Assembly (NCBI RefSeq): GCF_009834765.1
Contig: NZ_WVHP01000023.1
Location: 1-64,000, forward strand
Direction of reading: 5' to 3'
Origin: Saccharibacter sp. EH611
GTDB lineage: Bacteria > Pseudomonadota > Alphaproteobacteria > Acetobacterales > Acetobacteraceae
DNA: 64,000 nucleotides
This document shows positions 17,010-20,393 of the stretch, in pieces. How positions within the stretch are numbered: the stretch's first letter is position 1; each line of letters starts with the position of its first letter. Under the pieces are notes generated by a model. It saw only the letters and a list, made by a program, of their open reading frames with translations. It searched no databases and had not been told where the DNA came from. The translations under genes and the position numbers were made by a program.

Positions 17010-17159
17010 TGGTCGGTTCCTCCGATTAAACTTGGAACTAAAGACAACACTATCCATAGCACCACTGCAACGAAGCGACAGGGGGGTAACGTAAGTTTTT
17101 CATGCATAGCCGCTTCCCTCTTGCTTAACCCTCTACTTCCTGTAAGAATTTCGTGTACT

Positions 17160-17639
17160 ATGGCTAGTTCTGAAAAATTTTTCCCTCAGTGCGTCTCTCT
17201 TCTCACTCTTCCCCTCCTCTTTTCGTTGGTGGGGCTTGGGTTTCAGGGCTGCGCCCCGCTTGACCAGCGCACATTCGACCCTAATGCAGGGAAACCACCC
17301 CACGTGCATGTTGCACAGCCCATGCCACCTAAAAAACAGGCCCCTTTCTTGCAGGTTGTAGAAGGGACACCGGAAAGCGATTATGCTGGTCCTATCGAGA
17401 AAGCCACAAAAATAGCGCTGAATCGTAAACCGAATGTTCTTTTCATCGTACAGGGCATAGCACCTATGCAAAACACGCCGGACAAACAGGCTCAGACTCT
17501 AAACAACCTAACGCAACATCTTGCTGTGCCCGTCACAAACCATATCGTTGCAGCCGGTGCACGCCCTGTCCAAATTGATATGCGTGTCACTACAGACTCC
17601 ACTGCCCACCAAGCTATGGTACGCATCAATGTCCGTTAA
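17160..17639 (+). CDS. Putative lipoprotein, Acetobacteraceae-type
   Basis: A 159-residue protein with an N-terminal hydrophobic segment (CVSLLTLPLLFSLVGLGFQG) ending at a cysteine that begins CAPLDQRTFDPNAGKPP. That is the layout of a lipoprotein, though the lipobox FQGC is not canonical. The mature part holds a proline-rich linker and a domain including YAGPIEKATKIALNRKPNVLF and a C-terminal VQIDMRV strand. I recall similar conserved lipoproteins of unknown function in acetic acid bacteria. The ATG at 17160 is chosen over an upstream TTG. Its stop overlaps the start of the glycosyltransferase gene by 11 bases, suggesting translational coupling. Confidence 0.7.
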   Translation: MASSEKFFPQCVSLLTLPLLFSLVGLGFQGCAPLDQRTFDPNAGKPPHVHVAQPMPPKKQAPFLQVVEGTPESDYAGPIEKATKIALNRKPNVLFIVQGIAPMQNTPDKQAQTLNNLTQHLAVPVTNHIVAAGARPVQIDMRVTTDSTAHQAMVRINVR

Positions 17640-19077
17640 TCGTCCTTCTGCTGCCTGCGCCGTTCTCGTGCGTAATGCACAAACGACCATCCTAGACTGG
17701 CTTGCTTGGCATCTTTCTCTTGGTTTTCAGCGCATCTTCGTTATCGACGCTGGCTCCCATGATGCAACAGAACGGCTTGTCCAACCCTTAACCCAAGACT
17801 GGCCCATTATGTGGGACGCACCGGAACTGCCAGCTGACCTTTCCCCTGAAGAACGCCGTTCAACGCTCCCCCGCCATACACTAAGCCGCATGATTGGTGA
17901 GGAAGAGTGGGTCACTGTTTTAGATGCTGATGAATATCTTGTTCCTGATACAGACCTGCTCACGTTACTAGGTCACGGCAAAAATGCGGCAGGAATCGCT
18001 CTGAATTGGTGTATTTACGGCACATCAGGTCATCGCCAACGACCACGAGGCTCCCTCGTCGCCACATACTCATACCGGGCTCATGAAACATTACCAGACC
18101 ATGGCTTCACGCGTTTGTTGGTTCGGAGCTCATATCTCACATCTCCCGAGCACCAGGCAGCCCCTGAGGATTTAGACATTCCTGCCGAGCGATTAGTCAC
18201 ACCTAATGGAACCCCCGTGCAGGAAGGAGATCGTTCTCCACATTGGGAAGGTGGACGAATCTCTCATTTTATCTGTCCAGCCACACAAGATGCTGCGACG
18301 CTTCCTCCATCATTACGGCTACATTTCGATCGTAATGATGTACATGACCCGGCCCCTGCATCTTTGATCACAGCGGCTCGTCATCGTTTTAATGCATTAT
18401 CGCGCACGCTCTTCAATGCTGGCACACAGGCTTTACGAGCCATGGCGTCACAAGCAGAAGAAATACAAAAACCACCCCAGCCAGATCCCGATCTTGATTT
18501 GCCTGATCGCGCCCAACGGCCTGGATTTTTCTATGAAAGAATGCGCCCATCACGCAAGGATCAGCTGCTGCTCGTCCCACAAGCAGCGCCTCCCTATGGG
18601 ATTACACGGGCTTTCCTTCTGCGTTCAGCAGAAGGCTCCTTGTTAGAAGCCGATCCTGCAGGATCTCATCGACCTGTGATCGCCTTTATACAAGAGCAAA
18701 ATCCGCGACTTCTTTCATTAGTCGCCCGTGATGAGCACGACCTTACTCTGGGAGATATCCCCTGCCCTTATGGCATGGCTACAGTGCTGTCGCGGCGCAC
18801 CCATCGTCTAGAAATCTTCTCTCTTCCCGAAGAGGCAGGACATGGCGAAACGCTTTTTGAAGCCGTTCCTCTACCAGACATGGTACCACCTGATTTTCTC
18901 CCTTTACCGCCTCTAGATTGTCGGCAAGGCCTCAGCCTTAATGGCTTACTGACATGGCTAGAAACACATCCTGAGGCACGCCCTCAAGATATACAGCGCA
19001 CTCTCTGCCTTCTTCTTCATGAAGAGGCATTGCAACTCGGCCAGAATATTCCCGAGTTGATCCCTTTTTTACCGTAA
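17629..19077 (+). CDS. Glycosyltransferase-2-like protein (Glyco_tranf_2_4 type)
   Basis: This 482-residue protein begins with a GT-A-like fold: AACAVLVRNAQTTILDWLAWH, GFQRIFVIDAGSHDATERL, and the DxD-type VTVLDADEYLVP. Such motifs mark pfam13704-type transferases, often found in polysaccharide or surface-glycan loci. The C-terminal 200 residues (from about YERMRPSRKDQ) are not recognised. There are no membrane helices. Starting at the ATG at 17629 removes an upstream tail read out of the lipoprotein gene. The donor and acceptor cannot be told from sequence. It is probably co-expressed with the lipoprotein before it. Confidence 0.75.
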   Translation: MSVNRPSAACAVLVRNAQTTILDWLAWHLSLGFQRIFVIDAGSHDATERLVQPLTQDWPIMWDAPELPADLSPEERRSTLPRHTLSRMIGEEEWVTVLDADEYLVPDTDLLTLLGHGKNAAGIALNWCIYGTSGHRQRPRGSLVATYSYRAHETLPDHGFTRLLVRSSYLTSPEHQAAPEDLDIPAERLVTPNGTPVQEGDRSPHWEGGRISHFICPATQDAATLPPSLRLHFDRNDVHDPAPASLITAARHRFNALSRTLFNAGTQALRAMASQAEEIQKPPQPDPDLDLPDRAQRPGFFYERMRPSRKDQLLLVPQAAPPYGITRAFLLRSAEGSLLEADPAGSHRPVIAFIQEQNPRLLSLVARDEHDLTLGDIPCPYGMATVLSRRTHRLEIFSLPEEAGHGETLFEAVPLPDMVPPDFLPLPPLDCRQGLSLNGLLTWLETHPEARPQDIQRTLCLLLHEEALQLGQNIPELIPFLP

Positions 19078-19307: not shown

Positions 19308-20393
19308 TCAGAGCACTCCTGAACGCCACGCGATAAGCGCAACAGCGTCGAATCCCACAAGCAATAATGCTCCGATTACCATTCCAGTCACCACAGCTTT
19401 CGTTGTGCCCTGTCGTGTAAAATTTTCGGGGGTATCTGTGAGACGAGCAAGACTGGTACGTAAAGCGCTAAGCTCTTCCTCTCGGGCACGCTCTTCTTCA
19501 CGTTTTTCCCAGTATTGAGCGCTTTCTTGGCGAATATACCGCCCAGCTTCTAAGGGAGATGCAAAAGCATGATCAACAATATGCTGAGCAATCGTACCAC
19601 GCTGCTCTTCAATACGCAGCTCTGTTTCATCCGAATCATGCTGAAACGCCAAAAGTCGGCATGCCTGAGAAAACGCTAGTGTTTTCAACACAGTTACATC
19701 CTCAAGCGTCGCTATAGACCCCTCAGCAGCAACCAACAACACAATGTCCTCTTCTGCATGATGGATATGCCGAGCGAGTCGAGCCGCATCATCAATAGGA
19801 AGAGCCAAACGATGCACCGCTTCTGGACGCCAAAAACCACCAAAATGGCGGCATAAACCTTCTAATGATTGAGCCGAAACCCCAACACCAATAACCAAAA
19901 GCGTCGCATCCCCACGACATGGAAAGGCATGACGCCCAGATGGAAGGTCTCGCAATAAGGTTTGAACCGTATGAGCAGGGGGAGAATTGAGGCGCATACC
20001 GTGCTCGTGAGCACATAATGTAAGCACTTCTAAACGTGCAACCAGATGATCTCGCACCAAACGCGCCCGCATAAACCCGGTTGCACGCACGAGATCTCTT
20101 GGGCGAAGGCCGCTTTCATCCAGTACTGAAAGCGGCACCTCAAGGCGGATTTCAACCCCGCCTTGTTGGTCGATAAGAGGAAGCGATTCATGACGGCGCC
20201 ACGTATCAGGCGGCACCTCGCCTAAACGACCAATAACGGTTAAAGGAATACTCCACTCATCAAAACGCGCACAAATGTCATTCAAACGTCGATCAAACAA
20301 GGCCTGAAATCGTGCCGGTGTCACGACCGCGAGAGACTTAACGTCTCTCGCTTCTATCGAAGAAGGCCGCGAACGTTTTGAAAAAGCTTCCAT
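19308..20393 (-). CDS. Membrane-anchored protein resembling exonuclease VII large subunit
   Basis: The 361-residue product follows the XseA layout loosely. An OB-fold-like N-terminal part (LTVIGRLGEVPP to LVARLEVLTL) is followed by a region with DIVLLVAAEGSIATLEDVTVLKTL, recalling GRGGGSxEDLWxFN. AFQHDSDETEL sits where GHExDxTI lies in the family, and HAFASPLEAGRYI recalls the RAPTPSAAAE stretch. A charged coiled-coil-like stretch (EKREEERAREEELSAL) leads to one C-terminal transmembrane helix (AVVTGMVIGALLLVGFDAVAL). The catalytic residues look degenerate and a membrane anchor is unusual, so nuclease activity is doubtful. The gene lies 23 bases after an amino acid permease gene. The homology is my reading and needs a profile search. 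Confidence 0.5.
   Translation of the reverse strand: MEAFSKRSRPSSIEARDVKSLAVVTPARFQALFDRRLNDICARFDEWSIPLTVIGRLGEVPPDTWRRHESLPLIDQQGGVEIRLEVPLSVLDESGLRPRDLVRATGFMRARLVRDHLVARLEVLTLCAHEHGMRLNSPPAHTVQTLLRDLPSGRHAFPCRGDATLLVIGVGVSAQSLEGLCRHFGGFWRPEAVHRLALPIDDAARLARHIHHAEEDIVLLVAAEGSIATLEDVTVLKTLAFSQACRLLAFQHDSDETELRIEEQRGTIAQHIVDHAFASPLEAGRYIRQESAQYWEKREEERAREEELSALRTSLARLTDTPENFTRQGTTKAVVTGMVIGALLLVGFDAVALIAWRSGVL

Follow-up and report, generated by a model that had tools for sequence, protein, structure and literature searches.

In the usual view, a genome encodes a single XseA, the large subunit of exonuclease VII, and this is a soluble repair nuclease. Its long coiled coil and C-terminal segment carry XseB. 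Four residues addressed in published mutant work, D155, R205, H238 and D241 (E. coli numbering), are taken here to be the essential catalytic residues of the large subunit. In the window, a stretch of 64,000 nucleotides from Saccharibacter sp. EH611, the minus-strand frame 19308-20393 was examined regarding its relationship to this enzyme. An intact orthologue, 95% identical, is present in Saccharibacter floricola DSM 15669, and the frame is confirmed as a real gene. The features of the locus are listed in Table 1.

With the window protein alone, sequence searches of Pfam, NCBIfam and PDB gave matches at chance level only. Its orthologue from Gluconobacter wancherniae, 39% identical to the window protein, matched PF02601 (Exonuc_VII_L) above the cut-off with an E-value of 1.5e-12. 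This family was found above the cut-off for nine of the 13 Gluconobacter copies of the carrier set, at best with 6e-15. In profile-profile comparison, the tail-anchored family matched canonical XseA of Acetobacteraceae with a probability of 95.7 and an E-value of 8.5e-9, covering both the OB and the nuclease halves. For the eroded members only, the comparison brought the RGGG and GH motifs into register and gave an E-value of 5e-4, though at a probability of just 31. A PDB search with the profile of the RGGG-type members yielded E. coli exonuclease VII (8txr; E 5e-13) as sole match. The same structure was the top match of the AlphaFold model of the window protein (mean pLDDT 77.7, pTM 0.48) with Foldseek (E 1.1e-12) and with VIA-align (Z 14.2, 256 residues, rmsd 15.9); as this whole-length rmsd is high, it is the halves that match 8txr, and their relative arrangement is either different or uncertain. 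Matches to the type II dehydroquinase fold were limited to the alpha/beta core of the nuclease half; they were taken as a common arrangement. A chance resemblance to XseA is ruled out by the PF02601 match of the orthologue and the agreeing profile-profile and fold searches. Profile and structure comparison had been set beforehand as the refutation test of the preliminary description, which claimed a relationship to XseA; the similarity was significant and the claim was not refuted. By descent, the window protein is a paralogue of XseA. A second, normal xseA, which was looked for in the window genome, is present there, as is a normal xseB.

The XseA-like domain order, also claimed beforehand, was found again in the model. 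An N-terminal helix (residues 26-48) is followed by the OB fold, the exonuclease-VII-type nuclease fold, a coil and one C-terminal transmembrane helix; the last two are modelled as a helix from 280 to 319, a break and a helix from 324 to 357. The XseB-carrying coiled coil and the C-terminal segment are missing, and a 40-residue helix and the membrane anchor form the end of the protein. This anchor had been proposed as well and stands as a prediction, with 337-355 as the only strongly hydrophobic stretch. The protein is predicted to have what characterizes tail-anchored proteins, one transmembrane helix at the C-terminus followed by a short tail. Across the 33 proteins examined, plasmid copies included, the strongest hydrophobic segment is without exception C-terminal and the tail after it is predicted to be short at most. 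The part N-terminal of the anchor would be located on the cytoplasmic side.

Table 1 Features of the xseA-like gene and its surroundings in the window
Feature	Position	Strand	Details and evidence
xseA-like gene, tail-anchored (predicted)	19308..20393	-	361 aa, start ATG
OB fold, residues 49-128	20010..20249	-	model strands; XseA OB-fold alignment; OB-fold structures among fold matches
Nuclease-type alpha/beta half, residues 161-279	19557..19913	-	PF02601 alignment via orthologues; 8txr alignment
Juxtamembrane helix, residues 280-320	19434..19556	-	model; RAxxEExxALRxS invariant within close family
C-terminal membrane helix (predicted), residues 324-357	19323..19424	-	hydropathy in all members; model helix
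Codon of G179, at catalytic D155 position	19857..19859	-	alignment, 8txr numbering
Codon of A222, at catalytic R205 position; then A-E-G replacing G-G-G	19728..19730	-	alignment, 8txr numbering
Codons H252 to D255 (HDSD); H252/D255 in H238/D241 columns; then 10-residue insertion	19629..19640	-	alignment
Amino acid permease, 450 aa	20417..21769	-	PF00324, E 4e-73; 23 bp upstream of xseA-like gene, same strand
Terminator-like hairpin directly past xseA-like stop codon	19280..19300	-	count of such matches in region not above shuffles

The residues were numbered by alignment with 8txr, in which the H238A change itself fixes position 238. The altered catalytic motifs noticed in the preliminary description were found in this alignment: two of the four catalytic residues are lost (D155G, R205A) and GGG has become AEG. 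The residue set of an active large subunit is thus incomplete in the window protein, though a histidine and an aspartate stand in the H238 and D241 columns, in a register that is uncertain because of the insertion behind them. For the further claim that the protein is non-catalytic, the residue losses speak in favour and the kept H and D against; judged from its residues, the protein is probably inactive. All four residues are kept in the alignment in two Acetobacteraceae copies, G375 and G427. Three were found in most Gluconobacter and in the two betaproteobacterial plasmid copies; D241 is replaced by N in six tabulated RGGG-type Gluconobacter rows and in both plasmid copies. Between none and two of the four are left in Saccharibacter, the related genera g33, g62 and g71 and a single clade of Gluconobacter (L023, L024, L025, L040), whose loss of the active site may be independent of that in the Saccharibacter group.

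The xseA-like gene was detected in 30 of 397 sampled Acetobacteraceae genomes, belonging to six genera. Flower- and fruit-dwelling acetic acid bacteria are among the carriers. In a second sample, whose scan scores few candidates per genome only, 24 of 24 Gluconobacter and 10 of 11 g33 genomes had the gene, and single copies were found in g43 and g31. Canonical xseA is present in all 30 carriers and xseB in the four tested. With this coexistence, the protein could be a modulator of the cell's own exonuclease VII, which forms mixed oligomers with XseA or competes for DNA and in this way recruits the enzyme to the membrane or inhibits it. This is the strongest rival explanation, and the protein still has the nuclease fold, by which subunits could pair. 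Against it, the window protein is without the long coiled coil and the C-terminal segment of XseA, and the conservation of the single parts does not point to pairing. In canonical XseA the mean pairwise identities of helix, OB fold and nuclease part are similar (0.80-0.83), and in RGGG-type Gluconobacter the two nuclease stretches (0.78 and 0.91) are among the best conserved parts. In the eroded members conservation is flipped: the nuclease stretches are weakly conserved (0.33 and 0.27), and helix (0.59), OB fold (0.49) and coil (0.54) are kept. Hence, with the nuclease half least conserved, a preserved interface is not indicated there. We consider a modulator of exonuclease VII unlikely.

It could also be supposed that the protein is still a membrane nuclease, with a rearranged active site using the remaining H252 and D255 in their catalytic columns. 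The Gluconobacter members with three of the four residues may well be active. This explanation has to account for the loss of the D155 and R205 equivalents and of the GGG loop, for the 10 residues inserted past the H-D stretch and for the more distant Saccharibacter species (G002, L022), where H and D are lost, too. An activity of this kind is quite improbable for the window protein.

In Saccharibacter, Gluconobacter, g33, g62 and g71 the xseA-like gene occupies one conserved place, in most of them with gap, pgk and a gene for a glycosyltransferase nearby. A small open reading frame (17121-17639) without Pfam match is conserved beside the glycosyltransferase gene (17521-19077) in several genera. 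In the window, co-transcription with the amino acid permease is likely, since both genes are on the same strand, the gap is 23 bp and a terminator-like hairpin follows the xseA-like stop codon. According to the preliminary description, the fold would have a new role if a non-catalytic XseA relative at the membrane were co-transcribed with a permease. The adjacency was confirmed here, but a stable partnership was not: in 12 sampled syntenic loci the permease was found upstream in seven (in one with a DUF4186 gene between) and was absent from five, in which the xseA-like gene is kept. Thus, the permease is a frequent neighbour and not a partner. It is upstream and co-directional in every locus that has it, which together with the arrangement in the window would suit a protein serving the permease as regulator or accessory subunit. 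The five loci without permease, and the plasmid and conjugative copies, which no permease adjoins, make such a role very improbable.

For the xseA-like gene, dN/dS was 0.04-0.19 in the close pairs allowing an estimate, with 0.089 for the window pair. Canonical xseA gave 0.01-0.09 in most pairs, with G272/G333 as outlier (0.273). According to these values the xseA-like gene is kept by purifying selection, under a constraint somewhat weaker than that of canonical xseA. A decaying gene without function, as the eroded motifs and an identity below that of canonical xseA in every pair compared might suggest, is hardly conceivable with such values, a full-length, open frame in 30 of 30 carriers and a position conserved across several genera.

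Relatives of the gene were found on mobile elements. The tail-anchored G375 copy (G375:C25, L106:6048-9165) with its complete set of four residues has a relaxase gene (Relaxase + DUF3363) at a distance of 20 bp and lies in a Trb-type conjugation region with TraG, T2SSE ATPase, TrbL, VirB8 and TrbI. For the G427 copy (G427:C3, L107:6252-7570), complete as well, the distance to a tRNA-Gly gene is about 190 bp, possibly an integration scar. The same architecture was found in copies on the plasmids pSTJ1 (Sulfuricystis) and pAZI09 (Azospira). Both plasmid copies (L104:6716-8909, L105:4726-6912) have PRTRC system genes nearby and form a divergent pair with a PD-(D/E)XK nuclease-like gene. A plasmid search with the window protein, a phage search with the G375 copy and searches of viral contigs for the xseA-like gene gave no relatives. 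In class, phylum and Burkholderiales-side searches no short tail-anchored copy was detected beyond Sulfuricystis; the frame length of the other matches points to canonical XseA. One candidate (L120, E 7e-16) was rejected as a canonical XseA of 452 aa.

In the tree, G375 and G427 are placed together, the plasmid copies are deep and the group of Saccharibacter, g33, g62 and g71 is supported by 100/100. The eroded rows form a clade with a support of 67/95, and Gluconobacter as one clade was not rejected (p 0.33). The active site may have been lost once or twice, both being compatible with the tree. With relatives located on plasmids and within a region for conjugative transfer, an entry by mobile elements is probable. 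Such an origin would be the simplest reading of these few copies; the tree is also compatible with transfer in the opposite direction, into mobile elements.

Taken as a whole, it is probable that the window protein is a membrane-tethered, domesticated pseudo-exonuclease, i.e. an eroded XseA paralogue of mobile origin acting as a non-cutting scaffold. A mobile element would have brought the gene into the Gluconobacter-Saccharibacter line, where it came to lie next to gap-pgk. The cutting site would then have eroded in the line of the window, which retained the N-terminal helix, OB fold and juxtamembrane coil. The tail anchor would hold the protein at the inner membrane with its OB and nuclease folds in the cytoplasm, where the OB fold may bind single-stranded nucleic acid or a protein partner. 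As much of the DNA-cutting site is lost and selection yet preserves the gene, a new non-enzymatic job is probable. No binding partner was found in the analysis. Against DNA binding stands the net charge, neutral for the half with helix and OB fold and acidic for the nuclease half; the probably active relatives look alike, and eroded and RGGG-type members are not separated by charge. No match to the anti-phage defence models of PADLOC was obtained for the window protein. A bolder version, possible rather than probable and put forward tentatively, is that a membrane-bound handler of single-stranded DNA from conjugative elements, derived from exonuclease VII, was domesticated in acetic acid bacteria as a pseudo-nuclease acting at the membrane on incoming or outgoing DNA, e.g. 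by holding or excluding transferred single strands.

In a literature search, which left most subscription journals outside its reach, no paper on a tail-anchored form of XseA was found. The tail-anchored branch shows every stage from a complete to an eroded active site and thus offers a clear series for the change from nuclease to pseudo-enzyme. With one complete copy beside a relaxase, the branch also suggests a use of exonuclease VII parts at the membrane, which may concern DNA transfer. Among the closest described proteins are those of pSTJ1 and pAZI09, which are annotated as exodeoxyribonuclease VII large subunit and correspond to the window protein in length, architecture, coil and C-terminal anchor. 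Their identity to it is 21%; D155, R205, H238 and GGG are kept and D241 is N. Both plasmids are mobilizable or conjugative and have the xseA-like gene near PRTRC genes. The exonuclease family phrog_9454 matches RGGG-type relatives with E-values of 1e-10 to 1.6e-17, and the window protein is unmatched. With XseA (PF02601 and the OB fold PF13742; 8txr) the tail-anchored form has the N-terminal helix, the OB fold, the nuclease fold and the motif order in common, and the RGGG and GH motifs are recognisable in tail-anchored orthologues. It differs from XseA by its size of about 350 aa and by the membrane anchor (predicted) replacing the long coiled coil and the C-terminal segment. Furthermore, it comes in addition to canonical xseA, and in the line of the window catalytic residues are lost.
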